In this document: piece after piece, positions 16,754-36,109 of the stretch | Numbering within the stretch: position 1 is the first letter of the stretch | Layout of the letters: every line of letters begins with the position of its first letter | NCBI RefSeq assembly: GCF_013085465.1 | Contig: NZ_CP049838.1 | Location: 1,488,001 to 1,552,000 of the forward strand | Reading direction: 5' to 3' | Length of the DNA stretch: 64,000 nucleotides | Source of the DNA: Streptomyces asoensis | GTDB taxonomy: Bacteria > Actinomycetota > Actinomycetes > Streptomycetales > Streptomycetaceae | Notes under the pieces: generated by a model | The model's input: the letters and a program-made list of their open reading frames with translations, nothing else | Told to the model about the DNA's origin: nothing | The model's database searches: none | Translations under genes and position numbers: made by a program

Positions 16754-18348
16754 CCGGCGTCGCGGTCACCGACGTCCTCGTCGACGGACGGACGCTGTCC
16801 TACGACGATGTCGTCGCGGTCGCCCGGCACGGGGCCCGGGTGGTCCTCGCGGACGAGGTGCTCCCCCGGCTGACGCGCGACCGGGCCGTCGTGGACGACG
16901 TCGTCGACCGCCAGGTGCCGACGTACGGCCTGACCACAGGCCTCGGCGCGCGCTCCTCGTACGCCCTGCCCCGCGCCGAGCTCGAGCGCTTCAGCGTCCG
17001 TACGGTCCGGGGACGGGCCAACGCGGTCGGTGAACCCCTGCCCGTGCCCGTCGTGCGCGCGGCCGTCCTCGCCCGGGTGAACGGCATCGCGGGCGGCGGC
17101 AGCGGGGTACGGCCGGAGATCCCGCGGCTGCTGGTGGACATGCTCAACGCGCGGGTGCATCCCGTGATCCCCGAGGTGGGGTCGATCGGCGCCTCCGACC
17201 TGTGTCAGATGGCCCATGTCGGCCTGGTCGTCATCGGTGAGGGCGGCGCCGAGTTCGCCGACGAGGTGCTCGACGGCGGCGCGGCCCTGCGGCGGGCCGG
17301 TCTCACCCCGGCGACGCTGGGCCCCAGGGACGGGCATGTGCTGTGCAGCGCGAGCCCGCTGGCCGCCGGCGTGGGCGCCCTCGCCCTGCACGAGGCGGCC
17401 GCCGTCCTCACGCTCGCCCAGGCCGTCACGGCGCTCACCTACGAGGGCTTCCGGGCGAACACGGGTCCGCTCGACGCCCGGGTGCTGGGCCTGCGTCCCG
17501 CCCCCGGTCAGTCCCGCGCGGCGGCCGGCCTGCGCGCTCTGCTGGCCGGAGGCGAGCTGGGCGATCCCCGCAACGCGCGACGGGTGCAGGACCCCGTCAG
17601 CCTGCGCTGCGCGGCCCAGGTGCACGGGGCGCTGCACACCGCGCTGGACTTCGCCGACGCCGCGCTGCGACCGGAGCTGAACGGCTGCGGTGACAACCCG
17701 GTGGTGCTGGCCGGCGGCGACAACCCCGTGAAGCCGGCCGGCGGCGGCGAGATCCTCTCGTCCGGCAACTTCCACACCCCGGCCCTGGCCCTCGCCTTCG
17801 ACACCCTCGCGCTGGCCCTGACGCAGACCGCGTCGGTGTCCGCCGAACGCATGCGGCGCCTGCTGGAGCCCGCCGTCAGCGGACTGCCCGCGAACCTCTC
17901 GCCGTACGGCCCGGAGCGCTCGGGCTTCGCACCGCTGACCAAGACGGCGCAGGCCCTCGTCGCCGAGATCCGCATGCTGTCCGTACCGGTGAGCACCGAC
18001 CCCCGGCACGGCGCGGACGCCGTCGAGGACGACTCGACCAACGCGGCGCTCGGGGCACGGCGGCTGACGACGATCCTGGTCCGGCTGCGGCACCTGCTCG
18101 CCGTGGAGGCCGTGGTCGCCGCGCAGGCGGTGGACCTGGCGGCGCCGTCGGAGCTGGGGCGGGGCCCGGCGCTCCTGCACCATGCGATCCGCGCGATCGT
18201 GCCCCGCCTGGACGACGACCGGCCCTGCGGGGTGGACGTGGAGGCGGTGAGCCGTGACGTCCTGGGCCGCGAGGACGTGCGGAGCACACTGCACACGTGG
18301 GTGACGGAGGCGGCGAGGGAAGCGGCCGCCCCGGAAGGAGCGTCATGA
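16750..18348 (+). CDS. Aromatic amino acid lyase-fold protein (HAL/PAL family) with altered MIO triad
   Basis: A 532-residue protein of the histidine/phenylalanine ammonia-lyase fold. Conserved elements include the catalytic Tyr59 loop (TYGLTTGLG), RVQDPVSLRCAAQVHG, NGCGDNPVVL, SSGNFHTPALALAFDTLA and the segment GFAPLTKTAQALVAEI. However, where the family has Ala-Ser-Gly-Asp, which self-cyclises to the MIO electrophile, this protein reads GSIGASDLCQMAH (Ala148-Ser149-Asp150): the Gly codon is missing in frame. It may be an MIO-independent lyase, for example one eliminating trimethylamine from a betaine, rather than an ammonia lyase. GTG 16750 overlaps the upstream stop (GTGA). Located between a cyclodeaminase and an amidohydrolase and divergent from a betaine importer. 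Confidence 0.88.
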   Translation: MTGVAVTDVLVDGRTLSYDDVVAVARHGARVVLADEVLPRLTRDRAVVDDVVDRQVPTYGLTTGLGARSSYALPRAELERFSVRTVRGRANAVGEPLPVPVVRAAVLARVNGIAGGGSGVRPEIPRLLVDMLNARVHPVIPEVGSIGASDLCQMAHVGLVVIGEGGAEFADEVLDGGAALRRAGLTPATLGPRDGHVLCSASPLAAGVGALALHEAAAVLTLAQAVTALTYEGFRANTGPLDARVLGLRPAPGQSRAAAGLRALLAGGELGDPRNARRVQDPVSLRCAAQVHGALHTALDFADAALRPELNGCGDNPVVLAGGDNPVKPAGGGEILSSGNFHTPALALAFDTLALALTQTASVSAERMRRLLEPAVSGLPANLSPYGPERSGFAPLTKTAQALVAEIRMLSVPVSTDPRHGADAVEDDSTNAALGARRLTTILVRLRHLLAVEAVVAAQAVDLAAPSELGRGPALLHHAIRAIVPRLDDDRPCGVDVEAVSRDVLGREDVRSTLHTWVTEAAREAAAPEGAS

Positions 18349-21980: not shown

Positions 21981-23384
21981 TCAGCGGCCGACGCCGATCA
22001 GGCCCGTCAGATAGCGCCACAGCGACGAGCGCTGCCGGACCGCCGGATCGGGCAGTCCGATCCCGGCCGGTTCCTCGGCGGCCGCGGCCTGCGAGGACGG
22101 CGGCTCCGGCATCGTGGCCAGTTCGTACCGTACGGGCAGCGAGCGCAGTCCGCGCATGAAGGGCGAGGAGCGCCACGGCAGTTGGTCGACGGGGAGGGCG
22201 AGGTCCAGGTGGGTGAACCGCTCGAACAGCCGGCCCACGCCGACCGCCGCGACCGTCGACGCGAGCTCGCGCGCCGGGCACTGGCGACGGCCCGCGCCCC
22301 AGGCCAGGTGCGCCCGGGTGCTGACCGTGGTGCCGGATTCGACGTGGTCGGCGAAGAGCGGGTCGGCGTGCGCCGCCGCGGAGGAGACCCACACCGGGTC
22401 GCCGGCCCGGATCGTGTAGTTCCCGAGCCGGGTGTCCTCGGCCGCGAAGCGCGGCACGAAGTTCACCAGCGGCGGCTTGCGCATGACCACCCGGTTCATG
22501 CTCTCCCTGACCATCCCGGCGGACAGGCTGGCCCGCACGCCGCCCTCACCCGAGATGACCTCGACCACCGTGTTGGAGATGAGGATGCCGACATGGTCGG
22601 AGGTCATGCCCAGCAGCATGAACAACTCACGGGCGAGCTCGTCGAGCGAGAGTTCGGGATGCGCGGCCAGCAGGTACGAGGGGAAGTCCTCCCCCGGCTT
22701 CTCCAGCTTCCCCGCCGCCAGTTCGGCCAGCGCCGCAAGGAGCCGCTCCAGGGCGGGCTCCGCGTCCGGACCCGCGTCCAGTACCCGCCACATGTCCATC
22801 AGCGCGTCGTCGCCCTGCGAACCGGGGAAGCCGAGCAGATGGCTGGCCACCATCAGCGGCAGCGGCCGGGAGAACTGGGCGGAGAGGTCCGCCCAGCCCG
22901 TGCCGCCGGCCTGCCCCACCAGGCTGATCAGTTCGTCGGCGTAGGCGCCGACGGCCGTCTTCAGCCTCTTGGCCTGCGGGTGGCGCGGGTCCTGGAACGG
23001 CTTGAGGGCCGCGTCCCAGGCCGTCCGCAGCGGCCGGTAACCGGGGCCGCCCTGGATCAGCACATGGTTGACCTCGAGGGACGGTCCGAGCGGCCAGTCG
23101 GCCGGCACCCTGCCCTCCGACCGGGCCCGCCACTTCTCCAGCCCCTTGGGCCACCCGGCGTCGTCCTGGAGCACCTCGAGCGACTCCCGGTATCCCAGGA
23201 CCAGCCAGGCGGGCACCCCCAGCAGGTCGACCGGCGCGACCGGACCGTGCTGTTGCCTGAGCCGCTCGTACACGAGCGAGGGGCGCGTCTCGTAGTCCCG
23301 GGTCAGCAGCGGTTCCGGAGTCATCGTCTCCAACCGCGCGCCGTCCAGGTCCACGGATCCGCCGTCACCCACCTGCGATTCCAT
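21981..23384 (-). CDS. Cytochrome P450 with atypical K-helix
   Basis: A 467-residue P450. The haem-binding loop is LAWGAGRRQCPARELA with ligand Cys at about residue 369. Two hallmark motifs deviate. The I-helix reads LLGMTSDHVG instead of AGxDT. The K-helix segment before the PP reads NRVVMRKPPL, so the ExxR Glu is absent although Arg remains; the downstream meander (VPRFAAEDTRLGNYTI, AAAHADPLF) aligns normally. Loss of ExxR is known for the CYP157 family of streptomycetes. A 45-residue C-terminal extension follows. GGAGGG lies 10 bases before the ATG. The gene is divergent from the carboxylase-ligase-PKS operon, so it might act on its product, but no direct link is visible. Confidence 0.88.
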   Translation of the reverse strand: MESQVGDGGSVDLDGARLETMTPEPLLTRDYETRPSLVYERLRQQHGPVAPVDLLGVPAWLVLGYRESLEVLQDDAGWPKGLEKWRARSEGRVPADWPLGPSLEVNHVLIQGGPGYRPLRTAWDAALKPFQDPRHPQAKRLKTAVGAYADELISLVGQAGGTGWADLSAQFSRPLPLMVASHLLGFPGSQGDDALMDMWRVLDAGPDAEPALERLLAALAELAAGKLEKPGEDFPSYLLAAHPELSLDELARELFMLLGMTSDHVGILISNTVVEVISGEGGVRASLSAGMVRESMNRVVMRKPPLVNFVPRFAAEDTRLGNYTIRAGDPVWVSSAAAHADPLFADHVESGTTVSTRAHLAWGAGRRQCPARELASTVAAVGVGRLFERFTHLDLALPVDQLPWRSSPFMRGLRSLPVRYELATMPEPPSSQAAAAEEPAGIGLPDPAVRQRSSLWRYLTGLIGVGR

Positions 23385-23449
23385 CGCTCTGCCGCCCTCC
23401 GACACTCCCCGTACCGGCGCGTGGTCATTCGGTAGCCGGAACCGGTCGG

Positions 23450-23478
23450 ACCCTATCCCAGGACCCGTCCGCGGTGAA
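23450..23478 (-). promoter_or_regulatory. Putative promoter of the P450 gene
   Basis: On the minus strand TTCACC (complement 23473-23478) and TAGGGT (23450-23455) are 17 bases apart. TAGGGT matches the TAGRRT -10 of streptomycete housekeeping promoters. It would give a leader of about 60 bases before the P450 ATG. The remainder of the 343-bp divergent region (to 23727) holds no gene; I see no equally convincing promoter for the carboxylase direction. Confidence 0.45.
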
Positions 23479-23727
23479 CGACGGGGGCGCTGCGGGCCGC
23501 GATCCCGGGACTGCCGTGTCCCCCAACGCGGCACCGCATCAACTCGGCCGGTTCACTGAGCGGTTGACCTCCGCCTGAGCGGGACCGCGCGAGCGTCCGG
23601 CGCCGTCGCCTTGTCACGCCAGGACGAACCTGCGTCCCCGAGGACTCAACTCACGCAAACAGAACGGTGATCCCTCCGGTTCGCTCCCGCATCGCTGCCA
23701 TATTCGAGAACCACTTCGGAGGTGGCT

Positions 23728-25320
23728 GTGACGCGAGAGGCGACAACATCCCTGGCTACGGCGACGGCGGCAGAGATACCGACAACGACGAGCACGGCGG
23801 ACCGCACCGCCGACCGTATCGCGGACCTGACACGCCGTCAGGCACAGGCGATGGTGCCGGGCACGCCCAGGAGATCCGGGGCCCTCGGTGCGCGGGAGCG
23901 GATCGAGCGGCTGCTGGACGAGGGCTCCTTCACGGAGACCGGCGGGTTCGTCCGGGCGCGGTCCACGGGGGACGGTGCCCGCCGGCCCTACGGGGACGGG
24001 GTCGTCACCGGGTACGGCACGGTCGACGGACGGCCGGTCTGTGTGTTCGCCCAGGACTCCACGGTCTTCGGCGGCAGCATGGGCGAGGCCTTCGGCGAGA
24101 AGACCGTGGCCCTCATGGACCTCGCGCTCAAGACGGGCTGTCCGGTCGTCGGGCTCAACGACTCCGGCGGCGCCCGGATCCAGGAGGGCGTCTCCTCGCT
24201 CGCCCTCTACGCCGAGCTGGTGCGCCGCAACGTACGGGCGTCCGGGGTGATCCCGCAGATCTCGGTCGTCCTGGGCCCCTGCGCGGGCGGCGCCGCGTAC
24301 TCGCCGGCCATCACCGACTTCACCGTGATGGTGGACGGCGTCTCGCACATGTTCGTCACCGGGCCCGACGTCATCGAGGCCGTCACCGGCGAGCGCACCA
24401 CCGCCGAGGAGCTGGGCGGCGCCCGCGCCAGCAACTCCGTCAACGGCAACGCCCACTTCCTGGCCGTCGACGAGGAGGACGCCCTCGACACCGTGCGCGA
24501 CCTGCTGTCGTACCTGCCCGCCAACAACCTCGGGCGGCCGCCGGAGTACGCTCCCACGCCCGCCCCCGACGGGGCCCGGCTCGACACGCTGGTCCCCGAC
24601 CGGACCGGCCAGGCCTACGACATGCGCGACCTCCTGCACACGGTCGTCGACGACGGCGAACTGCTCCAGGTGCAGGAGCTGTTCGCGCCGAACATCATCT
24701 GCGCCCTGGCCCGGGTCGAGGGCGCCACCGTCGGGGTCGTCGCCAACCAGCCGATGCACGCGGCCGGCGTCCTCGACATCGACGCCTCCGAGAAGGCCGC
24801 GCGGTTCGTGCGGTTCTGCGACGCGTTCGGCATCCCGCTGCTGACCTTCGCCGACGTCCCCGGCTATCTCTCCGGTGTCAGCCAGGAACAGGCCGGCATC
24901 ATCCGGCGCGGCGCCAAGCTGCTGTACGCCTACGCCGAGGCGACGGTCCCGAAGATCACGGTGGTGGTGCGCAAGGCCTACGGGGGCGGGTACGCGGTGA
25001 TGGGCTCCAAACACCTGGGCGCCGACCTCAACCTCGCCTGGCCCACCGCCCGTATCGCCGTCATGGGCGCGGAGGGCGCCGTCGGCGTGCTGCACCGGCG
25101 TGAACTCGCCGCGGCCGACGACCCCGAGGCGCTGCGTGCCCGTCTCGTCGCCGCGTACGAGGCCACCCACGGGACGCCCTACCCCGCCGCCGAACGCGGG
25201 TACGTCGACGCCGTCATCGCCCCCCGCGACACCCGCGCCCACCTGTGCCGTGCCCTGCGCGCGCTGCGCGGGAAGCGCGCCCCGATGCCGGAGCGCCGGC
25301 ACGGCAACATCCCGCTCTGA
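23728..25320 (+). CDS. Acyl-CoA carboxylase beta (carboxyltransferase) subunit, AccD/PccB type
   Basis: A 530-residue carboxyltransferase that moves CO2 from biotin on a separate alpha subunit to an acyl-CoA. Oxyanion-hole motifs are visible: LNDSGGARIQEGV, GPCAGGAAYSPAITDF, and VVRKAYGGGYAVMGSKHLG with LNLAWPTARIAVMG. At about residue 423 it has Ala (GYAVMG), where the Streptomyces coelicolor propionyl-CoA enzyme has the specificity residue Asp422. No alpha (biotin) or epsilon subunit is nearby, so it must borrow one. GTG 23728 is chosen because GGAGG ends 5 bases before it; GTG 23722 overlaps that site. First gene of the operon with the FAAL and PKS, recalling accD4 next to pks13/fadD32. 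Confidence 0.93.
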   Translation: MTREATTSLATATAAEIPTTTSTADRTADRIADLTRRQAQAMVPGTPRRSGALGARERIERLLDEGSFTETGGFVRARSTGDGARRPYGDGVVTGYGTVDGRPVCVFAQDSTVFGGSMGEAFGEKTVALMDLALKTGCPVVGLNDSGGARIQEGVSSLALYAELVRRNVRASGVIPQISVVLGPCAGGAAYSPAITDFTVMVDGVSHMFVTGPDVIEAVTGERTTAEELGGARASNSVNGNAHFLAVDEEDALDTVRDLLSYLPANNLGRPPEYAPTPAPDGARLDTLVPDRTGQAYDMRDLLHTVVDDGELLQVQELFAPNIICALARVEGATVGVVANQPMHAAGVLDIDASEKAARFVRFCDAFGIPLLTFADVPGYLSGVSQEQAGIIRRGAKLLYAYAEATVPKITVVVRKAYGGGYAVMGSKHLGADLNLAWPTARIAVMGAEGAVGVLHRRELAAADDPEALRARLVAAYEATHGTPYPAAERGYVDAVIAPRDTRAHLCRALRALRGKRAPMPERRHGNIPL

Positions 25321-25367
25321 TCCGCCCGACCCGCCAGCCGACACCGCGCCGTGAGGAGCCACGCCCG

Positions 25368-27104
25368 ATGGACAGCCGCCCCCCGCTCGCGCCCGCGTAC
25401 CGGACTCTGCCCGAGTACCTGCGGCACTGGGCCGAAACCGCCCCCGACCGCCGGGCGTTCACCTTCGTCGACCACCCCGGCCCGCATTCGCGGGGCGTAC
25501 ACCGCACGCTGACCTGGCGGAGTCTGGACAGCCGCGTGCGGGCGCTCGCGGCCCGGCTCGCCGAGGAGGCCGAGCCCGGGGCGCGGGTGGCGCTGCTGTG
25601 CCCTCAGGGAACGGAGTACGTCACCGGTTTCCTGGCAGCGCTGGCCGCCGGGCTGGTCGCCGTACCGCTGTATCCGCCCGGCCTGCCCGGCCACGGGGAC
25701 CGGCTCGCCTCGGTGCTGGCCGACGCGCGTCCCGCGGTCGTGGTGACCACGAGCCGGGCGATGGCGGAGGTGGCGGACCTCTGCGCGCGTGCGCAGGTGC
25801 CGGCCGTCGCGGTGGACCGGGTCCCCGACACCGCCGCCCGGGACCGGCCGGTGGCCGCGCCGGACGCCGGGGCGACCGCCTATCTCCAGTACACCTCCGG
25901 ATCCACCCGCGCCCCGGCGGGCGTGGAGATCACCCACGCCAACGTGGTCGCCAACGCCCGCCAGGCACTGACCGCCTACGGCGCCGACACGGCCCCGGTG
26001 ACCTGCGTGGGCTGGCTGCCGCTCTACCACGACATGGGGCTCGTGCTGAGCGTCGCGGCACCTGTCGTCCAGGGTCGCCTGTCGGTGCTCATGGACCCGG
26101 CAGCGTTCCTGCACGAGCCGGCCCGCTGGCTGCGACTGCTCGCCGCGCATCCGCACGCGCTGAGCGCCGCGCCCAACTTCGCCTACGACTACTGCGTCTC
26201 CGCCGTCACCGACGCGCAGAAGGCGGAGCTGCGCCTGGACGGTGTCGCCGCGTTGATCAACGGCAGTGAACCGGTCCGGCCCGGCACCGCCGACCGCTTC
26301 CACGCGGCGTTCGCCGCCCAGGGCCTTGCCGCGGACGTCCACTGTCCGTCGTACGGGCTCGCCGAGGCCACCGTCTTCGTCAGCGCCGCCCGGCCCGGTG
26401 AGCCGTTGCGCCGGTTCGCCCTCGACCGGGACGCCCTCGCCGCCGGCAAGGCCCTGCCCGCGCGGCCCGACGACGCCGACGCCGTGCAGCTGGCGGGCTG
26501 CGGTACCCCGGCGGGCCAGCAGGTCCACGTCGTCGATCCCGTCTCCGGCGACTCCCTCTCCGAGGGGGAGGTCGGCGAGATCTGGGTGCGGGGCCCCAAC
26601 GTGGGGCGCGGTTACTGGAACAACGAGGCCCAGAGCCGGCGTGTCTTCGGTGCCCGGCCGGCCGGCGCCCCGGGCGGCTGGCTGCGCACCGGCGACCTGG
26701 GGACGGTACTGGACGGACAGCTGATCGTCACCGGCCGGCTGAAGGACCTCATCGTCGTCGACGGCCGCAACCACTACCCGCAGGACCTGGAGGCCACCGT
26801 CCAGGACGCGCATCCGGCCGTGCGACGCGACCGGCTCGCCGCCTTCGGCGTCCCGGGCGACGCGGGTGAGCGCGTGGTCGTGGTGGCCGAGCACACGCGG
26901 GCCACCCGTCTCGACGGGATCGACGTACCGGCCCTGGCGCGGGCCGTGCGCGCGGCCGTCTCCGCCCGGCACGGCCTGCGGCTCGCCGACGTCGTCCTCG
27001 TCGCTCCCGGCGCCGTGCCCCGGACGTCCAGCGGCAAGGTGGCGCGGGCCCTGACCCGGGCCCGGTATCTGGAGGGCGCCTTCGGGGCGGGGAGGGCGCG
27101 ATGA
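25368..27104 (+). CDS. Fatty-acyl-AMP ligase (FAAL, FadD32-like)
   Basis: A 578-residue adenylating enzyme. The P-loop is YTSGSTRAPAGV, the STRxP form typical of FAALs (QYTSGSTRTPAGV in FadD32-like proteins) rather than STGxP of acyl-CoA ligases. Other marks are VGWLPLYHDMGLV, CPSYGLAEATVF, the hinge region LIVTGRLKDLIVVDGRNHYPQDLE and the C-terminal Lys motif PRTSSGKVAR. FAALs activate a fatty acid as acyl-AMP and load it onto an ACP, here presumably the N-terminal ACP of the next protein. ATG 25368 has GAGGAG upstream; the stop overlaps the PKS start as ATGA, indicating stoichiometric expression. Confidence 0.93.
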   Translation: MDSRPPLAPAYRTLPEYLRHWAETAPDRRAFTFVDHPGPHSRGVHRTLTWRSLDSRVRALAARLAEEAEPGARVALLCPQGTEYVTGFLAALAAGLVAVPLYPPGLPGHGDRLASVLADARPAVVVTTSRAMAEVADLCARAQVPAVAVDRVPDTAARDRPVAAPDAGATAYLQYTSGSTRAPAGVEITHANVVANARQALTAYGADTAPVTCVGWLPLYHDMGLVLSVAAPVVQGRLSVLMDPAAFLHEPARWLRLLAAHPHALSAAPNFAYDYCVSAVTDAQKAELRLDGVAALINGSEPVRPGTADRFHAAFAAQGLAADVHCPSYGLAEATVFVSAARPGEPLRRFALDRDALAAGKALPARPDDADAVQLAGCGTPAGQQVHVVDPVSGDSLSEGEVGEIWVRGPNVGRGYWNNEAQSRRVFGARPAGAPGGWLRTGDLGTVLDGQLIVTGRLKDLIVVDGRNHYPQDLEATVQDAHPAVRRDRLAAFGVPGDAGERVVVVAEHTRATRLDGIDVPALARAVRAAVSARHGLRLADVVLVAPGAVPRTSSGKVARALTRARYLEGAFGAGRAR

Positions 27105-30100
27105 GCGCCGTCGACGAGGGCGCGCTGCGCCGTCTGATCGCGGAACGGGTCGCCGCCTGGAACGGCACCGGCGACGACGTACCGATGGACCTGCCGCTGG
27201 CCGACCTCGGCATGTCCTCACGGGACGCGGTCGGCCTGGCCGGGGAACTGTCCCGGCTGACGGGCCGCGAGCTGCCGGCGACGCTGCTCTGGTCGGCGCC
27301 CACGCTGGAGGCTCTGGTGGCGCAGCTGAGTGGCCCGGCGGCACGGCACCTCCCCGCGCCGCCGGCGGCCCCTCCCCCGGCGGCGCTCGACGAGCCCGTC
27401 GCGGTCATCGGGGTCGGGTGCCGGCTGCCCGGCGGGGTGCGTGGCCCGGCCGACTACTGGCGGCTGCTGGGCGACGGGACCGACGCGATCGGGCCGGTCC
27501 CGGCGGACCGGTGGCGGGACTTCACCGCCTTCCCGCCCGCCGACGCGCCCGCGTACGGCGGCTACCTCGACGACATCGCCGGGTTCGACGCCGACTTCTT
27601 CCGCATCACACCGCGCGAGGCCACGGTGATGGACCCGCAGCAGCGGATGCTCCTGGAGGTCGTCCACGAGACGCTCGACCACGCCGCCGTCCCGGCCGCC
27701 ACCCTCGCCGGCTCGGCCACCGGCGTCTTCGTCGGCGTCTGCTCCCCGGAGTACGGACAGCTCACCGGCGCCCGAGCGGCCGCCGTCGATCCATGGGCCC
27801 CGGCGGGCGCGGCGCTCGGTGTGACCGCGGGCCGGCTGGCGTACGTCCTGGACACCCGCGGGCCGAGCATGGCCGTCGACACCGCTTGTTCGTCCTCGCT
27901 CGTCGCCGTGCACCACGCCTGTGTCAGTCTGCGCACCGGCGAGAGCGACCTGGCGATCGCCGCCGGGGTCAACCTGCTCCTGTCGCCCGTCGTCGGCGTC
28001 GCGTTCGCGCGGGCGGGCGCCCTCGCGCCGGACGGCCGCTGCAAGCCGTTCGCCACGGCGGCCGACGGCATCGGGCGCGGCGAGGGATGCGCGGCCGTGC
28101 TGCTGAAACGGCTGTCCGACGCCGAGCGCGACGGTGACCGCGTCCTCGCGGTCGTCCGCGCCACCGCCGTGAACTCCGACGGCCGCTCCAACGGCCTCCT
28201 CGCCCCCAACCCGGCGGCGCAGCAGGCCCTGTTGAGCACCGCCTACGCGCGGGCCGGGCTGGCCCCGGCGCATATCGACTACGTCGAGGCGCACGGCACC
28301 GGCACCCCGCTCGGCGACCCGATCGAGGCGGGCGCGCTCGACACGGTCCTGGGCCCGGGCCGCGACCGCGACCAGCCGCTGCTGCTCGGCTCCGTCAAGG
28401 GCAACCTCGGGCATCTGGAGTCCGCGGCGGGCATCGCGGGCCTGGTGAAGACGGTCCTCGCGCTGCATCACGACCGCGTTCCGCCGTCGCTGCACTGCGC
28501 GCACGGCAGCGCCCTGGACGGCGTACGACTGCGGGTGGTGACCGAGCCCGAGCCCTGGCCCCGCTACGGCGGCACGGCCACCGTGGGGGTGTCGGCCTTC
28601 GGGTTCGGCGGTACCAACGCCCATGCCGTACTGGAGGAATGGCGGCCCGACACGCTGCCGCCACCCCCGGCCGAGGAACCGGCCGCCCGGCTGCACCTGC
28701 TGTCCGACGTCGACACCGAGCGGGTCCGGGACACCGCGGCCCGGCTCGCCGGGTGGCTCCGCACGCCCGGGGGGCGCGCCGCCCGTCCGGCCGACGTGGC
28801 CCGTACGCTCGCCGGACGCACTGGGCGCGGGCCGGTACGCGCCGCCGTGGTCGCCCATGACCGGGAGGAACTGGCCGACGCGCTGGGCGCGTTGGCGCAG
28901 GACCGGCCGCACGCGCGGGTGCTGACCGGCGACCGCGATCGGGTCGGGCGCGGTCCGGTGTGGGTGTTCTCCGGGTACGGCAGCCAGTGGCCCGGCATGG
29001 GGCGTCGCCTGCTGGCCGAGGAACCGGCCTTCGCGGCCGCCGTGGAGAAGCTCGACGCGCAGCTCGCCGTCGCATGCGGCTTCTCGCTCCACGACCAGCT
29101 GGCCTCCGGAGCGGCGCTCGACCGTGTGGAGATCGCCCAACCCGTGCTGTTCGGGCTCCAGTTGGCGCTCGCCGAGTTGTGGCGCTCGTACGGCGCCGAA
29201 CCGGCGGCCGTGATCGGTCACTCCCTGGGCGAGGTGGCCGCCGCCGTCTGCGCGGGTGCCCTGGACGTGTCGGACGCGGCCCGGGTCGTCGCCGTGCGGG
29301 CCCGGCTGCTGGGCGGGTTGCACGGCGGCGCGATGGCCGTCGTCGACCTGGACGACGGCGAACTGGCCGACCTGGAGCGCGACTTCCCGGGCGTCCGGGT
29401 CGCCGTCCACTCCTCGCCCCGGCAGAAGGTCGTCACCGGGGACGAGGAGGCGGTCACCCGGCTCGTGCGCCGACTCGAGGAGCGGGGCCGCGCCGCCCGG
29501 GCCTTGCGGGTCGTCGGCGCCGGACACTCGCCCCAGGTGGACCCGCTGCTGCCGGAGCTCACCGACGCCCTGTTCGACGTCGGGGGCAGGCCCGCGCGCG
29601 TCCCGGTCTACTCCACCGTCCTCGACGACCCGCGCGGCGACTGCCGGTTCGACGCCGCCCACTGGGCCGCCAATCTGCGCCGTCCCGTGCGCCTGGACCG
29701 GGCCCTCGCGGCGGCCGCCGCCGACGGCCACACCGCCTTCGTCGAGATCTCGCCACATCCGGTCCTGGCCCGGCCGGTGACCGACACGGTGCCCGGCGCC
29801 CTCGCGGTGGGCACCCTGCGCCGCGGCGCGGACGGCTGCGCCGGGTTCCTCTCGGAGCTGGGCACCCTGTACGCGGCCGGCCTGCCCCTGCCGCGGCCGC
29901 CCGGCCGGGTCGTCGACATGCCCGCACCGCGCTGGCGGCACGCCCGGTACTGGTGGACGGACGGCCGGGCCCCCGTCGCGCCGCCGGCAGTGGCGGCGGG
30001 GCGATGGGCCGAGCCCTCCGCACCGGGCGAGGAGGCCGACGCACCGGGCGAGGAGGCCGACAGCCCGGGTGAGGAGACCGACGGCCCGGTCTCGATCGCC

Positions 30101-31207
30101 GCCCGCCTCAGCCACCACATCGCCGCCGTCACCGGCCACCCGACGGCCCGCGTCACGCCTGCCACGGCGCTGGCCGACCTCGGCCTGGACTCGCTGATGG
30201 CCGTCCGTATCCGCACAGCCCTGGAACGCGAGTTCCGGATCGACCTGCCGTTGCGCGACCTGCTCGGCTCCGCCACCGTCGACGAGGTGGCCGACCGCAT
30301 CCGACAGGCCCTTCCCGCAACGGCGACTGCGACTGCGACTGCGGTTGCGGTTGCGGTTGCCAGGGACGAGGGGGAGGGGCCCTCACCGCTGCGGGCCCTG
30401 CGCACCGCCGGCTCCCGGCCGCCGCTGTTCCTGTTCCACGCGGCCGGTGGCCGCGCCGACGTCTACCGCGCACTCGCCGAACGGCTCGGGGACGACCGTC
30501 CGGTGCACGGGCTGGAACGGCTGGAGGACGCCCGTACCGTGCCGGAGAAGGCACGCCGCTATGCCGAGGCGATCACCGCCGCCCATCCCGACGGGCCTCT
30601 TCTGCTGGGCGGTTGGTCCTTCGGCGGCTTCCTCGCCCAGGAGACGGCCCGACAGCTCACCTCCGTCGGACGGGCCGTGCCGCTCGTCGTGCTCATCGAC
30701 TCGGTGCGGCCCCTCCTCCGACCCGACCGTAGGCAGGCCGACCGGCTCCGCGCGCACTTCACGGGCTTCGCCCGGCACGTCGCCGACACCTACGGGGTGC
30801 GGCTGCGGCTGCCGTACGACGAACTCGTGGCGATGGACGACGACCGCGAGCGCATCGACCTCGTGCTGCGGACCCTGCGCGGCGCCGTCGAGGTACCGGC
30901 CGCCGCGCTGGAGCACCAGCGTGCCTCCTACCTGGACCTGAGGGTCGGGGAGGCCCACCGTCCGGGCCGCCACGACGGCCGCGTGGTCCTGTACCGGGCC
31001 ACCGAACCGGCTCCGCACACCGTGCGCGACCCGGCCTACGAACGCGACGACGAGACCCTCGGCTGGGACGAGGTGTGCCCGCGTCTGACGGTCGTACCGG
31101 TCCCGGGGCACCACCTCTCGCTGCTCGACCCGCCGCACGTGGACGAGATCGCCGCCCATCTGCGGCAGGTGCTCGCCACGCCGAGCGGACCCGCTGAACC
31201 GGACTGA
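27101..31207 (+). CDS. Pks13-like polyketide synthase (ACP-KS-AT-ACP-TE)
   Basis: A 1368-residue single-module synthase. Domains: N-terminal ACP (1-80, phosphopantetheine Ser40 in DLGMSSRDAV); ketosynthase (about 100-515; Cys263 in VDTACSSSL, His in EAHGTGTPLGDP and KGNLGHLES); acyltransferase (about 620-930; Ser708 in GHSLGEV); C-terminal ACP (about 1000-1075, Ser1031 in DLGLDSLMAV); thioesterase (about 1110-1360; Ser1173 in GGWSFGG, Asp 27 residues later in LIDSV, His in PGHHLSLL). There is no reductive domain, so the product is a beta-keto acyl chain. The domain order equals mycobacterial Pks13 (about 1730 residues), which condenses a FAAL-activated fatty acid with a carboxyacyl unit. Linkers contain EEADAPG and TATAVAVA repeats. 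Condensing substrates are inferred. Confidence 0.95.
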   Translation: MSAVDEGALRRLIAERVAAWNGTGDDVPMDLPLADLGMSSRDAVGLAGELSRLTGRELPATLLWSAPTLEALVAQLSGPAARHLPAPPAAPPPAALDEPVAVIGVGCRLPGGVRGPADYWRLLGDGTDAIGPVPADRWRDFTAFPPADAPAYGGYLDDIAGFDADFFRITPREATVMDPQQRMLLEVVHETLDHAAVPAATLAGSATGVFVGVCSPEYGQLTGARAAAVDPWAPAGAALGVTAGRLAYVLDTRGPSMAVDTACSSSLVAVHHACVSLRTGESDLAIAAGVNLLLSPVVGVAFARAGALAPDGRCKPFATAADGIGRGEGCAAVLLKRLSDAERDGDRVLAVVRATAVNSDGRSNGLLAPNPAAQQALLSTAYARAGLAPAHIDYVEAHGTGTPLGDPIEAGALDTVLGPGRDRDQPLLLGSVKGNLGHLESAAGIAGLVKTVLALHHDRVPPSLHCAHGSALDGVRLRVVTEPEPWPRYGGTATVGVSAFGFGGTNAHAVLEEWRPDTLPPPPAEEPAARLHLLSDVDTERVRDTAARLAGWLRTPGGRAARPADVARTLAGRTGRGPVRAAVVAHDREELADALGALAQDRPHARVLTGDRDRVGRGPVWVFSGYGSQWPGMGRRLLAEEPAFAAAVEKLDAQLAVACGFSLHDQLASGAALDRVEIAQPVLFGLQLALAELWRSYGAEPAAVIGHSLGEVAAAVCAGALDVSDAARVVAVRARLLGGLHGGAMAVVDLDDGELADLERDFPGVRVAVHSSPRQKVVTGDEEAVTRLVRRLEERGRAARALRVVGAGHSPQVDPLLPELTDALFDVGGRPARVPVYSTVLDDPRGDCRFDAAHWAANLRRPVRLDRALAAAAADGHTAFVEISPHPVLARPVTDTVPGALAVGTLRRGADGCAGFLSELGTLYAAGLPLPRPPGRVVDMPAPRWRHARYWWTDGRAPVAPPAVAAGRWAEPSAPGEEADAPGEEADSPGEETDGPVSIAARLSHHIAAVTGHPTARVTPATALADLGLDSLMAVRIRTALEREFRIDLPLRDLLGSATVDEVADRIRQALPATATATATAVAVAVARDEGEGPSPLRALRTAGSRPPLFLFHAAGGRADVYRALAERLGDDRPVHGLERLEDARTVPEKARRYAEAITAAHPDGPLLLGGWSFGGFLAQETARQLTSVGRAVPLVVLIDSVRPLLRPDRRQADRLRAHFTGFARHVADTYGVRLRLPYDELVAMDDDRERIDLVLRTLRGAVEVPAAALEHQRASYLDLRVGEAHRPGRHDGRVVLYRATEPAPHTVRDPAYERDDETLGWDEVCPRLTVVPVPGHHLSLLDPPHVDEIAAHLRQVLATPSGPAEPD

Positions 31208-31216
31208 GGAGCCGCC

Positions 31217-32161
31217 ATGCCGCAGCACACCGCCCGACCGTCCCGACGCGCCGTCACCAGGGCCGCGGCGGCCACCGGCCTGGCCGCCCTGTTCGGCGCC
31301 ACCGCCGCCACGGCACACGCCCGGGCCGCGACCCGGCTGGGGCCGCGGACCTTCGACGTGTCCGTGTCCTCCGCCGCGCTGGGCCGCAGCGCGCCGGTCC
31401 GACTGATCCTGCCGTCGGACTTCGACGCCCGGCCCACGCGGAGCTACCCCGTCCTGTATCTCCTGCACGGCGCCCACGACGACTACACGTCCTGGACCCG
31501 GGAGACGGACATCGAGGCCTTCACCGAGGGCCGCGACCTGATCGTGGTCATGCCGGACGCGGGCCCCACGGGCATCCCGACCGCATGGCGCGGCGGCCCC
31601 GACTACGAGACCTTCCAGCTCCAGGAGGTCCCGGCGCTGCTGGCCCGCGACTACCGGGCGTCCGGCGTGCGGGCCGTCGCCGGGGTCTCCACCGGAGGCT
31701 ACGGCGCGATGGCGCACGCGGCCCGCCACCCGGGCACGTTCACCGCCGCGGCCTCCTACAGCGGCATCCTCGACACCACCGCCCCCGGCGTGCCCGCTCT
31801 CCTGGACGCCATCGTGGCCCGCGAGAACCTGGCCCCGCACTCGCTCTGGGGCAGTCCGCTGCTCAACGCCCTCACCTGGCGCGACTTCAACCCGCGCGCC
31901 CGGGCCGCCGGGCTGCGCGGCACTCCCCTGTACGTCTCCAGCGGCAGTGGGGTGGTCGGCGGCATCGGCGACTGGCTGCCCGAGGCGCTGGAGAGCACCC
32001 TGTGGCCCTCCGCGCACGGCTTCACCGACCTCCTCGCGCTCCTCGGCATCCCGGCCACCACCCACTACTACGCGGGAGGAGGACACAGCTGGACCTACTG
32101 GAAGCGGGAGTTCACCGCCTCGTGGCCGATGCTCGCCGGTGCGCTGGGGGTGCCGGAGTGA
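31217..32161 (+). CDS. Secreted PF00756 esterase (antigen 85/esterase-D family)
   Basis: A 314-residue exported alpha/beta hydrolase beginning 9 bases after the PKS stop, with GAGGAG upstream. The N-terminus PSRRAVTRAAAATGLAAL is a plausible twin-arginine signal, with cleavage near AHA-RAA. The nucleophile elbow is GVSTGGYGAM; the late His is in GGGHSWTYWKREF. Family PF00756 contains the mycobacterial antigen-85 mycolyltransferases as well as simple esterases, so sequence alone does not prove acyl transfer. Its position directly after a Pks13-like synthase suggests that it moves or releases the lipid product outside the membrane. Confidence 0.88.
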   Translation: MPQHTARPSRRAVTRAAAATGLAALFGATAATAHARAATRLGPRTFDVSVSSAALGRSAPVRLILPSDFDARPTRSYPVLYLLHGAHDDYTSWTRETDIEAFTEGRDLIVVMPDAGPTGIPTAWRGGPDYETFQLQEVPALLARDYRASGVRAVAGVSTGGYGAMAHAARHPGTFTAAASYSGILDTTAPGVPALLDAIVARENLAPHSLWGSPLLNALTWRDFNPRARAAGLRGTPLYVSSGSGVVGGIGDWLPEALESTLWPSAHGFTDLLALLGIPATTHYYAGGGHSWTYWKREFTASWPMLAGALGVPE

Positions 32162-32283
32162 TGTCGGTGCAGCCGGGGCACGGAACGGAGCGCAGGGGGC
32201 GTCCGTCCAACACAGGACGTCCCCCTCGTCCCACGGGCAACAGCGCGTGGGCGAGCCGCCTCCGGGTGAAAGGAGTGTCCGTC

Positions 32284-33492
32284 GTGGCTGTGCCCACCCC
32301 GCGCGGCGTGCCCACCGATCCCGGGACCGTTTCGGTTCCGCCCGATCTGGCCGAGTTACTGCGCGCCCAGTTGGAGGGCGTCGCCGACGAGGTGGAGGAG
32401 GAGGTCCGACGGCAGGTGCCCGAGTACGCGCGGCCGGCCGACGGGACCTACGGCCGCAATCTCCGGGCCGGAGTGGTGCAGGCGCTCACGTTGTTCGTCG
32501 ACCACATCGCCGACCCGCGCGGCCACGGAGCCGCCATCGCCGCGACGTACTACGAACTCGGGCGCGGCGAGGCACTCGAGGGCCGCAGTCTGGACGCGTT
32601 GCAGTCCGCGTTACGGGTGGGCGGGCTGCACGCCTGGCGGCTGATGAGCCGTACGGCGGAGGAACTCGGGCTGGACTCGACGGTCGTCGCCGCACTCGGC
32701 GAACTGGCGTTCCGGACCGTGCACGAGGTCGCGGAGGCAGCAGCCGCGGGCTACGCGGAGGCACGGTCACACAACACGGACGAGCTGGAACGGCGCCGCC
32801 GACGCCTGCTCGATCTGCTGCTGGGCGACGGACCGGTGTCCCCGGAGGCGGTGCAGGACCTGGCGCACGGAGCACGCTGGCGGGTGCCGTCACGGGTCGC
32901 CGTCGTCACGCTGGCGGCCACCGCGGACCCGCATGCTGCGGACGGGCCACCGGCGATGCCCGGGGCGCTGATGGACATGGGGTCACGGCCGCCGCGCGTG
33001 CTGGTGCCGGACCCGGAGGGCTCCGGGCGGTTCGGCGGCCGGTCGTTCCTGCTGGGCCTCCAGGGCCGCCCGGCGGCGATCGGCCCGACGGTCCCCGTCA
33101 CCGAGGCCGCGCAGTCGCTGCGCTGGGCCACGCGGGCGCTGGGGCTGATGGGGCGCGGGATCCTGCCCCGGCAGGGCGTGGTGCGGTGCGACGACCACCT
33201 GTCGGCCCTGTTGCTGTACAGCGACGAGCCGCTGCTCGCCCACCTGCGGACGCGGGCCCTCAGGCCCCTCGACGCCGCTTCCGAGGGACAGCGCGCCCGG
33301 CTGGCCGAGACGCTGCTGGCCTGGCTGCTCAGCGGCAGCAACGTGCCCGATGTCGCCGCCCGGCTCCACATCCATCCGCAGACGGTCCGCTACCGCCTGC
33401 GCCAGCTGGAGAAGCTCTTCGGCGACGCCCTGCACGACCCCGGCGCCCGCCTGGATCTGATCCTGGCCCTGCGCTCCGCGAACTACTCCTGA
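32284..33492 (+). CDS. PucR/CdaR-type transcriptional regulator
   Basis: A 402-residue regulator with a helical N-terminal sensor (LRAGVVQALTLFVDHIADP...) and a C-terminal PucR-type helix-turn-helix, LLAWLLSGSNVPDVAARLHI followed by HPQTVRYRLRQLEKLFG. I chose GTG 32284, 8 bases after AAAGGAG; the open frame continues far upstream inside the esterase gene but without support. It follows the esterase by 122 bp on the same strand and sits between it and the cutinase gene, making it the obvious candidate regulator of the lipid locus, although no target site is proven. Confidence 0.88.
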   Translation: MAVPTPRGVPTDPGTVSVPPDLAELLRAQLEGVADEVEEEVRRQVPEYARPADGTYGRNLRAGVVQALTLFVDHIADPRGHGAAIAATYYELGRGEALEGRSLDALQSALRVGGLHAWRLMSRTAEELGLDSTVVAALGELAFRTVHEVAEAAAAGYAEARSHNTDELERRRRRLLDLLLGDGPVSPEAVQDLAHGARWRVPSRVAVVTLAATADPHAADGPPAMPGALMDMGSRPPRVLVPDPEGSGRFGGRSFLLGLQGRPAAIGPTVPVTEAAQSLRWATRALGLMGRGILPRQGVVRCDDHLSALLLYSDEPLLAHLRTRALRPLDAASEGQRARLAETLLAWLLSGSNVPDVAARLHIHPQTVRYRLRQLEKLFGDALHDPGARLDLILALRSANYS

Positions 33493-33564
33493 TGGCCGAA
33501 CCACCCCTGATGGCCACCGGCACCACCCGGGCCCGGGCCCACTCACCACGGAACAAAAACAAGC

Positions 33565-33580
33565 GGAATTTCTGAATTCC
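33565..33580. promoter_or_regulatory. Inverted repeat upstream of the cutinase gene
   Basis: GGAATT and AATTCC, separated by 4 bases, form a perfect 6-bp inverted repeat in an unusually AT-rich 60-bp stretch, about 90 bases before the cutinase ATG and 73 bases after the regulator stop. It could be an operator for the adjacent PucR-type regulator. Function inferred from position only. Confidence 0.3.
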
Positions 33581-33670
33581 CGTCCATAACACCCGGCCAG
33601 GAAACGCGAATACCTTCGGGACTGTCCTTTTCATCAGGCGCTTCACGCGCCCCACCCGCAAAGGATCCCC

Positions 33671-34312
33671 ATGCGTATCCGCTTGTGTCTCGCCGCGCTC
33701 TCCCTCGTCGGCGGGGCGGGACTCGTCACTCTCTCGACACCCACCGCAACCGCCGCCACCTGCTCGGACATTGACGTCGTGGCCGCTCGCGGCACCTTCG
33801 AACCGGGCACGCTCGGCCTGATCGTCGGCGACCCGGTGTTCTCCGCACTCCAGAAGAAACTGACAGGCAAAAGCCTGTCCAGCTACGCGGTGAACTATCC
33901 CGCAGACCTTTCCCTGACATCGGCCGCGCAGGGAAACGCGGATCTGGTGAACCACGTCAAGGCGCAGGCGACGGCCTGCCCGAATCAGCGTTTCATTCTC
34001 GTCGGATATTCGCAGGGCGCGAATGTCGTCGACAATTCCATCGGCATCAGCAGTGCCGGCGCGGTGGTCGGCAGCCCCATCGTCGCGACCCTCCCCACGG
34101 CGGTCGAGCCGAAGGTCGCCGCGGTCCTGCTGTTCGGCAACCCGATCCGGGCCCTCGGCAAGAGCGTCACCGGCACCTACCAGAGCCGCACCATCGACTT
34201 CTGCGCCACCGGTGACCCCATCTGCGAGAACGGCGGCGACGACGTACTGGCGCATCTCGGCTACACCTCCGACGCCACCGCGGCGGCCACGTTCGCCGCC
34301 GGCAAGGTCTGA
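33671..34312 (+). CDS. Secreted cutinase-family serine esterase
   Basis: A 213-residue cutinase (PF01083). Signal peptide: MRIRLCLAALSLVGGAGLVTL, with cleavage near ATA-ATC. Mature features: the first Cys in ATCSDIDVVAARGTFEPG, the nucleophile in FILVGYSQGANVV, and the C-terminal catalytic Asp region FCATGDPICENGGDD followed by His in VLAHLGY; four Cys can form the two cutinase disulfides. AAAGGA lies 8-9 bases before the ATG. A cutinase-like protein (Rv3802c) also sits beside pks13/fadD32 in Mycobacterium tuberculosis. Substrate could be cutin, polyesters or a lipid ester made by the upstream operon. Confidence 0.93.
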   Translation: MRIRLCLAALSLVGGAGLVTLSTPTATAATCSDIDVVAARGTFEPGTLGLIVGDPVFSALQKKLTGKSLSSYAVNYPADLSLTSAAQGNADLVNHVKAQATACPNQRFILVGYSQGANVVDNSIGISSAGAVVGSPIVATLPTAVEPKVAAVLLFGNPIRALGKSVTGTYQSRTIDFCATGDPICENGGDDVLAHLGYTSDATAAATFAAGKV

Positions 34313-34387: not shown

Positions 34388-36109
34388 CTATCGGGGAGTG
34401 CGGGCGAACGACGAGAGAGCTCCGGACACGGGTTCGGGCAGCCCGTTGTTCTGTTCCGGCGCCGCGGTCAGCACGTCGAGGTGCTGGTAGCCCGCGGCGA
34501 CGACGGGGTGCAGGTCGGCCGGGATGCGGCCCGCGAGCAGTCCGTCGCCCGCGAGCACCGTGAGCGTCGGATTGGCCGTCAGCCCTGTGGGATGTACGAC
34601 GAGTTTCCTCACCTGCGGTGAAGTGGCCAGCTGGATGTCGGTCACCAGTTTGGTCGGGAAGTACTGCTCGGTGAAGTCGAGCGGCTGCTCCGCCAGGCTG
34701 CGGGCCAGCTCCTGGAGATCGGTGACCTCCTTGCCCGCGTCGGTGAACGGCGTACCGTCGGCCGACCGGTACCCGGGGTCGTCGGCGTCGCCGACCCGGT
34801 CGTAGTCACGCCAGGTGTACAGCGGCCCGTGGGGCTGCGCGGGGATGGCCTTGTACCCGACGCCGAACAACCGCGTCGGCTGCGTGCCGCCGTTGGCCGC
34901 GGGGAAGCTCTTGTCCGTGACCGGCCCGCCGTCGAAGAAGCCCACACTGCTCTGGAGGAACGCCAGCGGTACGGAGTTGTCGTCCATCAGTGCCCCGAGC
35001 ACCGTGGCGTTGGTGAGCCGGAAGTCCTTCACCCCGGGTGAGCCGGTGAGGAAGGTGGCGGCGTCCTTCGAGAACAGGAAGCGGTTGGTGGCCTCGATGT
35101 TGATGCCGGAGGGCAGATAGGCCGGCAGGTCCGCCTCACCGTCCGCGTCGCGCACGGCGCCCAGGCCGGCGATGGCGAGCAGGGTCATGGTCTCCGGGTT
35201 GAGCAGCACCGGCGCGGACAGCGAGCGGGGCAGCACCCCGGTGTCGAGCCCCGCCTGCACCGCCGCATAGCCGAGCCCGATGTCCGGCAGGTCGGTGTCG
35301 TCGGGCAGGCTGCCGCTCAGGTCGGCCAGCGAGGTGGAGATCGTCGTGTCGAGGGCGAAGTAGCCGGCGCACTGGTTCTGTCCCGCGTCCGCCAGGGTGG
35401 TGGGGTCGCCGTCGAAGTCGGCCGCCGCGAAGTACCCGGTGACGACCCCGCCCAGCGAGTGTCCGCCGCACAGCACCTTGTTCCTGCGCAGGCCCTGGTC
35501 GGGCAGTTCGTGAACCAGCAGGTCGTATTCGTCCCGTACGGTCTGTTCGATGCCGAGCTTCGCCATCCACCCGAGCCGGTTGTCGCCGACGAAGCCCCCG
35601 AAGACCCGGCCGTCGACCTGCTTGGCCCGGTAGTAGTAGTCGACGGCGGTGTGCTGGTCGCCGGAAGCGATGCCGGTGCGGTCCTCCAGGCAGTTGGAGC
35701 GCCGGTCCAGGGCCCAGAACTCGATGTGCCGCCCCTGCGCGGCGGCCTTCGCGACCGTGCCGCGGGCCACACTGTCGAAGGCTCCGGCGCCCTCCAGGAT
35801 GCCCGGCTGGGCCACGAGGATCCGGTCGGCGTCGGCCGACGCCGCCGGTCCGTCGGCGGAGCGATAGCGCAGATACGACAGCTGGTCGCAGGCCGCCGGC
35901 CGGTCCCCGAAGGACCGCGGCAACGGCAGCTTCACCCGTACCACCGACTCGGTCACGCCGTCGGCCGGGTGCGTCGACGTCACGGGCGTCTCGGTCCGTG
36001 CGCCGTCTCCCTGAGCGTCCGGGGCGGCCGCGGTGAGCGCCCCCGTGGTCAGCAGCACCGCCAGCGCCGCGCCGCGCCACGTCCTTCCTCTGCTACGACT
36101 CGTGTTCAT
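34388..36109 (-). CDS. Secreted alpha/beta hydrolase (lipase-like)
   Basis: A 573-residue exported protein. The N-terminus has a basic region (NTSRSRGRTWR) and a hydrophobic core (GAALAVLLTTGALTAAA). The nucleophile elbow is VLCGGHSLGGVVTGYFAAADF, typical of lipases; a plausible late His lies in the C-terminal AAGYQHLDVLTAAPEQN. The ATG is at 36109. No closely related named enzyme is recognised. It is convergent with the cutinase gene and separated from it by a strong hairpin, so it is probably not part of the PKS operon, though it adds another secreted esterase to the region. Confidence 0.85.
   Translation of the reverse strand: MNTSRSRGRTWRGAALAVLLTTGALTAAAPDAQGDGARTETPVTSTHPADGVTESVVRVKLPLPRSFGDRPAACDQLSYLRYRSADGPAASADADRILVAQPGILEGAGAFDSVARGTVAKAAAQGRHIEFWALDRRSNCLEDRTGIASGDQHTAVDYYYRAKQVDGRVFGGFVGDNRLGWMAKLGIEQTVRDEYDLLVHELPDQGLRRNKVLCGGHSLGGVVTGYFAAADFDGDPTTLADAGQNQCAGYFALDTTISTSLADLSGSLPDDTDLPDIGLGYAAVQAGLDTGVLPRSLSAPVLLNPETMTLLAIAGLGAVRDADGEADLPAYLPSGINIEATNRFLFSKDAATFLTGSPGVKDFRLTNATVLGALMDDNSVPLAFLQSSVGFFDGGPVTDKSFPAANGGTQPTRLFGVGYKAIPAQPHGPLYTWRDYDRVGDADDPGYRSADGTPFTDAGKEVTDLQELARSLAEQPLDFTEQYFPTKLVTDIQLATSPQVRKLVVHPTGLTANPTLTVLAGDGLLAGRIPADLHPVVAAGYQHLDVLTAAPEQNNGLPEPVSGALSSFARTPR

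Follow-up and report, generated by a model that had tools for sequence, protein, structure and literature searches.

A conserved Streptomyces gene block with kinship to the Pks13 condensation locus of Mycobacteriales

The stretch of DNA analysed here, referred to below as the window, is 64,000 nt long and corresponds to positions 1488001–1552000 of the 10.04-Mb, single-contig genome of Streptomyces asoensis. It carries a conserved block of genes, CT-FAAL-PKS-EST-PucR-CUT followed by the convergent gene m573, which probably specifies a Pks13-type cassette for fatty-acid condensation and transfer outside the Mycobacteriales; this reading draws on sequence comparisons and predicted structures, and its product is one that we infer. 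An earlier note on this DNA had named the six co-oriented genes of the block, all of which are present, while the extent it gave missed m573 (34388–36109, minus strand).

The gene block and its conservation

The genes, synthase domains and conserved upstream regions are as follows (ACP, acyl carrier protein; KS, ketosynthase; AT, acyltransferase; TE, thioesterase; PDB, Protein Data Bank). Signal peptides were judged by eye.

23614–23721, plus strand: conserved DNA 5′ of CT, with TTGTCAC and CCATATTCG (alignment of 41 sequences)
23722–25320, plus strand: CT, acyl-CoA carboxylase carboxyltransferase, AccD4-like (PF01039, 612 bits; tree; specificity residues)
25368–27104, plus strand: FAAL, fatty acyl-AMP ligase (PF00501; NCBIfam FAAL models; tree)
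27101–31207, plus strand: Pks13-type synthase, ACP-KS-AT-ACP-TE, 1368 aa (Pfam, residues, trees, PDB ranking)
27101–27340, plus strand: synthase N-terminal ACP, about residues 1–80, LGMSSRD (motif common to Pks13; PDB ranking, weak scores)
27392–28498, plus strand: synthase KS domain, Cys and two His present (Pfam, residues, tree 100/99)
28958–29869, plus strand: synthase AT domain, GHSLG and GAGH motifs (Pfam, motifs, tree 99/96)
30107–30301, plus strand: synthase C-terminal ACP, LGLDSL (Pfam, motif)
30422–31177, plus strand: synthase TE domain, Ser, Asp and His present (Pfam, residues, PDB ranking)
31217–32161, plus strand: EST, secreted PF00756 esterase, triad S158, E259, H290 (Pfam, tree, fold)
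32161–33492, plus strand: PucR-type regulator, PF13556 (Pfam, sequence; kept in 39 of 42 clade-A loci)
33541–33670, plus strand: conserved DNA 5′ of CUT (alignment of 39 sequences)
33671–34312, plus strand: CUT, secreted cutinase, Sub1 orthologue (PF01083; sub1 primer match in S. scabiei; 38 of 42 loci)
34388–36109, minus strand: m573, secreted alpha/beta-hydrolase-like protein, GGHSLGG (sequence motif, apparent signal peptide, conservation)

The genes from CT to PucR are tightly spaced, being separated in turn by a 47-bp gap, a 4-bp overlap, a 9-bp gap and a 1-bp overlap. The FAAL open reading frame begins at 25245 and its likely start is the ATG at 25368; the likely start of PucR, the ATG at 32161, overlaps the EST stop codon. 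CUT starts 178 bp after PucR and has conserved upstream DNA of its own.

Relatives were collected using one genome per species, and the best 80 of 163 stretches were kept, giving 79 loci that were sorted by identity and neighbouring genes into clades A and B and group C. Clade A comprises 42 loci (41 titled Streptomyces and one 'Actinobacteria bacterium') with synthase identities of 65–91%, and clade B 18 loci (16 Streptomyces, one Actinospica and one 'Actinobacteria bacterium') with identities of 49–56%. The 19 loci of group C come from Amycolatopsis, Actinopolyspora, Saccharopolyspora, Nonomuraea, Herbihabitans, Actinosynnema and two Streptomyces. The synteny check that the earlier note had proposed bore it out: the genes present are colinear in all 42 clade-A loci (CT in 40, FAAL in 40, PKS in 42, EST in 39, PucR in 39, CUT in 38 and m573 in 35), and the absences are contig ends, except for m573 in L025 and L027. 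Where flanking sequence was sufficient, m573 was found in 35 of 37 clade-A loci. Genes outside the block are common to only part of the clade. An order shared by all 42 of these close relatives puts the arrangement of the block far from chance. EST adjoins the synthase gene in most loci of clades A and B and in several of group C.

Within clade A, TTGTCAC in the DNA upstream of CT, with its reverse complement 5′ of m573, and ACTCA upstream of both CT and CUT are candidate shared words. A P450-like gene (21981–23534, minus strand) lies just 5′ of the block and is not conserved in clade A; weak relatives of it (25–32% identity) occur near some clade-B and group-C loci.

Among 150 Streptomyces genomes, the window's own included, EST is found at ≥81% identity in 17 and at 56–61% in six more; when weaker relatives are counted, 46 have a match at E ≤ 1e-40. 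Relatives of CUT at E ≤ 1e-15 occur in 18 of the same 150, 17 of them at ≥83% and one (G109) at 45%. The 17 genomes with CUT are the 17 with EST, and the distance between the two genes is 1436–1576 bp in each. Because of shared descent, these co-occurrences are not 17 independent events. The cutinase being an orthologue of the suberinase Sub1 (see below), its linkage to EST is the most unexpected result, and it is firm. In G109, a clade-B-like EST (59%) sits elsewhere in the genome. Across the class, EST matches at E ≤ 1e-45 were seen in 26 of 296 genomes, and four genomes of one family (G202, G292, G354 and G396; family code f17) have three EST relatives each at this threshold.

Relationships of the block enzymes

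The synthase shares its domain order with Pks13 and its active-site residues are present. When PDB sequences were ranked against the whole protein, Pks13 came first (828 bits), followed by mycocerosic acid synthase (MAS, 642 bits). For the TE alone the top seven sequences were all Pks13 (142–147 bits, the next scoring 81), and for the N-terminal ACP alone the first six rows carried the name of Pks13 or a general polyketide-synthase name, at weak scores of 37 bits or less. The LGxSSRD motif of this ACP recurs in four of the five Pks13 proteins aligned, the fifth having LASRD. In the KS tree one branch (100/99) sets apart 37 of 60 rows, made up of clades A and B, group C and the nine loci with Pks13, and the AT tree returns the same grouping (31 of 54 rows; 99/96). 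On the opposite side are modular polyketide synthases of the window's own genome and of G244, and other polyketide synthases of the Pks13-bearing genomes. Neither tree settles how A+B, C and Pks13 branch from one another, and group C is not one clade. Synthases over the Pks13 cut-off were present in nine of 148 genomes, which were taken as Mycobacteriales because their synthases pass it. Grouping of the KS and TE with ordinary polyketide synthases, the outcome that the earlier note had set against its own proposal, was not seen: KS and AT go with Pks13 in the trees, as does the TE in its top seven PDB matches.

In the CT tree, A, B and C group with the AccD4 proteins of pks13 loci (98/91), apart from PccB/AccD5 (98/92). 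The position equivalent to D422 of PccB is Ala in 40 of 40 rows of clade A, two of two of clade B, 13 of 13 of group C and nine of nine of AccD4; elsewhere it is Asp (six) or Cys (two) in the eight PccB/AccD5-type rows, Gly in L206 (own CT) and Ile in two AccB-like rows. At position 161, A and B have Val, group C has Gly, Ser or Ala, and AccD4 has Gly or Ser. Phe stands there in the PccB of the window genome, one PccB-like row, four AccD5 rows and L206, with two AccD5 rows unread. The window CT is of AccD4 type at both positions, with neither Asp nor Cys at the first and no Phe at the second. Excerpts of PMC5187497 report Phe at position 161 in all subunits known for chains of up to four carbons, and Ala and Gly at the D422 and 161 positions in Streptomyces MccB, which takes hexanoyl-CoA. 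By analogy, the same rule may extend to the window CT and to long chains.

Ordinary extender ATs read YASH or HAFH at the AT specificity position. Clade A reads GAGH in 40 of 40 rows (42 loci), clade B GAGH, AAGH, VAGH or TAGH in 18 of 18, and group C GAGH in 17 of 21, with one AASH, one VAGH and two unread. Pks13 reads GASH or GAGH in eight of eight rows (nine loci), and the remaining 39 rows, which include duplicate Pks13 rows, have YASH or HAFH in 14. The specificity positions of CT and AT appear to fit longer acyl substrates.

In the FAAL tree, A, B and C come together (92/89), next to one group that contains FadD32 and another made up of mycobacterial FAALs. The ligase falls among the mycobacterial-type FAALs, and the tree does not place it specifically with FadD32. 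It is the sole FAAL of the window genome at E ≤ 1e-50. In L058 and L065 a second, distant FAAL-like ligase (30% identity) lies 5′ of the main one.

EST has a twin-arginine-like signal (SRRAVT). Its tree, which omits L246 and L247 as overlapping with or similar to mycoloyltransferase rows, places it as sister to the sampled mycoloyltransferases (99/97) and not inside their clade. The best match by both sequence and predicted fold is PS1/MytA; the fold and the catalytic Ser-Glu-His positions of mycoloyltransferases are present, and a C-terminal HxWxYW region is common to both. No second protein of this type was found in the window genome, the next match having an E-value of 5.9e-4. The kinship with Ag85 that the earlier note had proposed to check holds for the sister position and the predicted fold, and fails at the LDG-LR loop, which EST lacks.

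The cutinase proved to be of another kind than the Rv3802c-like enzyme suggested earlier. CUT scores 24.8 bits against a cut-off of 570 for the Rv3802c/Culp6 model and the PDB sequences related to it are other cutinases, led by 4psc, which rules out an Rv3802c equivalent. In Streptomyces scabiei 87.22 (L024), the block is colinear with the window and its cutinase is 84% identical to CUT; the annealing parts of both sub1 cloning primers match at the ends of this cutinase gene (L024:16835–16853, plus strand, and 17370–17389, minus strand). By these sequence matches CUT is orthologous to the cloned sub1 gene and occupies the same position in the block. Excerpts of PMC3388780 describe SCAB_78931 as an extracellular cutinase, and the numbering of C9ZCR0, C9ZCR4 and C9ZCR8 in parts of PMC4098958 and PMC5158115 suggests that SCAB_78931 is sub1. 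The same two sources, in part, report that sub1 is expressed with suberin, and passages of PMC7104285 that Sub1 hydrolyses cutin, suberin and polyethylene terephthalate (PET), making it a proven polyesterase. The neighbouring m573 matched no Pfam family at E ≤ 0.001, with a weak hint of Abhydrolase_5 (E 0.084). Of the 7991 candidates scored, 981 are related to it at E ≤ 0.001, and those named among the 120 matches listed are Streptomyces proteins. Its predicted structure (mean pLDDT 35.6) was not used.

Some relatives of the synthase carry a ketoreductase (KR) domain. The three group-C genes scanned, which lie beside FAAL, CT or EST genes, are:

L071:9941–16366 (Amycolatopsis): Pks13-like synthase with dehydratase (DH) and KR between AT and C-terminal ACP
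L068:9998–16468 (Actinopolyspora): Pks13-like synthase, also with DH and KR between AT and C-terminal ACP
L082:9836–15502 (Nonomuraea): Pks13-like synthase with KR and a DH remnant

The clade-B synthase of L055 has neither domain. Of 21 group-C synthases 13 were aligned, and all 13 keep the KR cofactor and Ser-Tyr-Asn motifs; in several, the DH is degenerate or cut short. KR-bearing enzymes of this kind could yield alpha-alkyl beta-hydroxy products by themselves. Genes of an MFS family are present in 16 clade-B and seven group-C loci, often adjoining FAAL, and those of a zinc alcohol dehydrogenase family in 10 and three, respectively, following EST in clade B. In L044 (15222–22684) and similar clade-B loci, the dehydrogenase is followed by conservon-like genes (a histidine-kinase-like ATPase, a roadblock protein, an ATP-binding protein and a P450).

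Proposed pathway and rival explanations

In the pathway proposed, CT, together with a biotin-carboxylase subunit from elsewhere, would convert a medium- or long-chain acyl-CoA to an alkylmalonyl-CoA, and the AT would load this unit onto the C-terminal ACP. FAAL would activate a second fatty acid and load it onto the N-terminal ACP, and the KS would condense both chains to an alpha-alkyl beta-oxo thioester. The TE would then pass the acyl product to a sugar, a polyol or a similar small carrier; after export by a transporter, EST would transfer the acyl chain to an acceptor at the surface. In mycoloyltransferases the LDG-LR loop contacts trehalose, and as EST has no such loop, a trehalose acceptor is not implied. 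CUT and m573 would act extracellularly on plant polyester or on lipid, under PucR control.

The earlier note had allowed a beta-keto or a beta-hydroxy product. Neighbour comparison found no conserved reductase or transporter in the clade-A block (no search was aimed at a CmrA-type reductase or an MmpL3-type exporter in the rest of the genome), so an alpha-alkyl beta-oxo ester is expected, and this is probably the product unless a reductase elsewhere acts; the intact KR of some relatives keeps the hydroxy form in view for these. According to excerpts of PMC2568869, a reductase mutant still esterifies unreduced beta-oxo mycolates to its wall, so a cassette without a reductase would be chemically workable; free beta-oxo acids decarboxylate to ketones (same source).

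We do not class the locus as Pks13, FadD32 or Ag85 proper. The overall proposal of the earlier note survives as a Pks13-type condensation and transfer kinship, carried by KS, AT, CT, TE and EST; it loses the Rv3802c-type cutinase and makes no claim to a FadD32 identity. The lack of a conserved reductase or transporter counts against even this narrower reading, as do several other results. FAAL scores 509.1 bits, below the curated FadD32 cut-off of 975; long branches are present in the FAAL tree, where the fork among the three groups is not settled and the ligase is not resolved with FadD32. The unity of the A, B and C esterases is only 88/66. There is no known product. The portions consulted of the open-licence PMC literature hold no recognised report of a Pks13-type locus, or of such a lipid, in Streptomyces. 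The remaining adverse points belong to the rival explanations.

One of these is a single-module polyketide synthase with a short extender, in which FAAL would load a fatty acid, the AT would use malonyl- or methylmalonyl-CoA, and the TE would release a diffusible signal or antibiotic in the form of a beta-keto acid, ketone or lactone, leaving the esterase and cutinase as accessory hydrolases. The AT alone does rank PpsA (254 bits), PpsC (248) and MAS (235) above Pks13 (181) among PDB sequences; CT is 66% identical to the PccB of its own genome versus 49–55% to locus AccD4; and the synthase, at 1149.9 bits, is under the curated equivalog cut-off of NCBIfam NF040607 (Pks13; 2100 bits). However, this explanation is at odds with the KS and AT trees, with GAGH in place of YASH or HAFH and the CT specificity positions, and with the fixing of a dedicated CT and a mycoloyltransferase-like EST in the block, and we regard it as improbable. 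The KS and AT trees also speak against an ordinary modular polyketide synthase, although the AT by itself points to PpsA, PpsC and MAS when PDB sequences are ranked. A somewhat better, though still unlikely, alternative is that EST is a hydrolase and not a transferase, which with CUT and m573 digests plant or own esters while the lipid is secreted free (a surfactant, or a ketone after decarboxylation). That would suit its place beside rather than within the mycoloyltransferases, the replacement of LDG-LRAxDD by LHG-AHDD, the environmental esterase 4rgy scoring above Cmt1 and Ag85C by sequence, and the polyesterase activity of Sub1 (PMC7104285, in part). It sits less well with PS1/MytA as the best match by sequence and fold, the shared HxWxYW region, and an EST that is the only such protein of its genome and stands beside the synthase in most A and B loci and several of C.

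The synthase operon and CUT/m573 may also be mere neighbours, the latter pair serving plant-polymer catabolism with no part in the lipid pathway. This is doubtful, yet deserves slightly more weight than a hydrolytic EST. The 178-bp gap and separate conserved DNA before CUT, the convergent orientation of m573, the lack of CUT in clades B and C, and the induction of sub1 by suberin (excerpts of PMC4098958) are all in its favour. Against it, the 17 genomes of 150 that have CUT are those that have EST, neither gene being seen at that identity without the other, and the order is kept in all 38 loci with enough flank; shared descent weakens both arguments.

Beyond the Pks13-type condensation and transfer cassette itself, a wider view can be put forward tentatively, and is itself rather doubtful. 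A mycolate-type cassette would be widespread in supposedly mycolate-free actinobacteria (Streptomyces, Pseudonocardiaceae, Actinopolyspora, Streptosporangiaceae), yielding hidden mycolate-like lipids, beta-oxo in the window clade and beta-hydroxy via the built-in KR in group C, and the mycomembrane pathway would have grown from it. In clade A it would be wired to plant polyester: Sub1 would free long-chain acids from suberin or cutin, the cassette would convert them to an alpha-branched surface lipid or surfactant, and EST would deploy it. If true, the surface lipid or surfactant would belong to a new class, one relevant to the colonisation of waxy plant surfaces by Streptomyces. Kin of Pks13, AccD4 and mycoloyltransferases in Streptomyces, with KR-bearing relatives in other families, allow ideas on how mycolate chemistry arose to be tested in easily handled organisms. 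Sub1 is also placed in a setting that the portions of its literature consulted do not describe, its close orthologues never being found without the adjoining block EST among the 150 Streptomyces genomes, and the linkage offers suberin as a candidate inducing condition.

Comparison with known systems

The closest parallel is the mycolic acid locus of Mycobacteriales (mycoloyltransferases, Rv3802c-type cutinase, FadD32, Pks13 and AccD4). The two have in common five activities side by side, the domain order of the synthase, and the grouping of KS, AT and CT in trees. The gene order differs, being CT-FAAL-PKS-EST-PucR-CUT in the Streptomyces block and EST-(CUT)-FAAL-PKS-CT in Mycobacteriales; the Streptomyces block also has a cutinase of another type, the addition of PucR and m573, and scores below the Pks13 and FadD32 cut-offs. 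To our knowledge, Streptomyces is a genus without known mycolates. Excerpts of PMC6194230 give mycolates as exclusive to Corynebacteriales.

EST resembles MytA/PS1 of Corynebacterium glutamicum and Ag85 of Mycobacterium tuberculosis in fold, triad positions, HxWxYW region and sister-group placing, and differs from them as a sister lineage in which the LDG-LR loop is absent. In lipstatin biosynthesis by Streptomyces toxytricini, two fatty acids are likewise joined to give an alpha-branched product, the condensing enzymes being FabH-like and not a Pks13-type synthase. MccB of Streptomyces ambofaciens is a streptomycete carboxyltransferase that, like the window CT, carries Ala in place of D422 of PccB and a residue other than Phe at 161; it differs in having Gly, not Val, at 161, and makes alkylmalonyl-CoA for stambomycin, the product of a macrolide polyketide synthase (PMC5187497, in excerpt). 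Sub1 of S. scabiei, known from the portions of its literature consulted as a stand-alone polyesterase, is here part of a conserved block.

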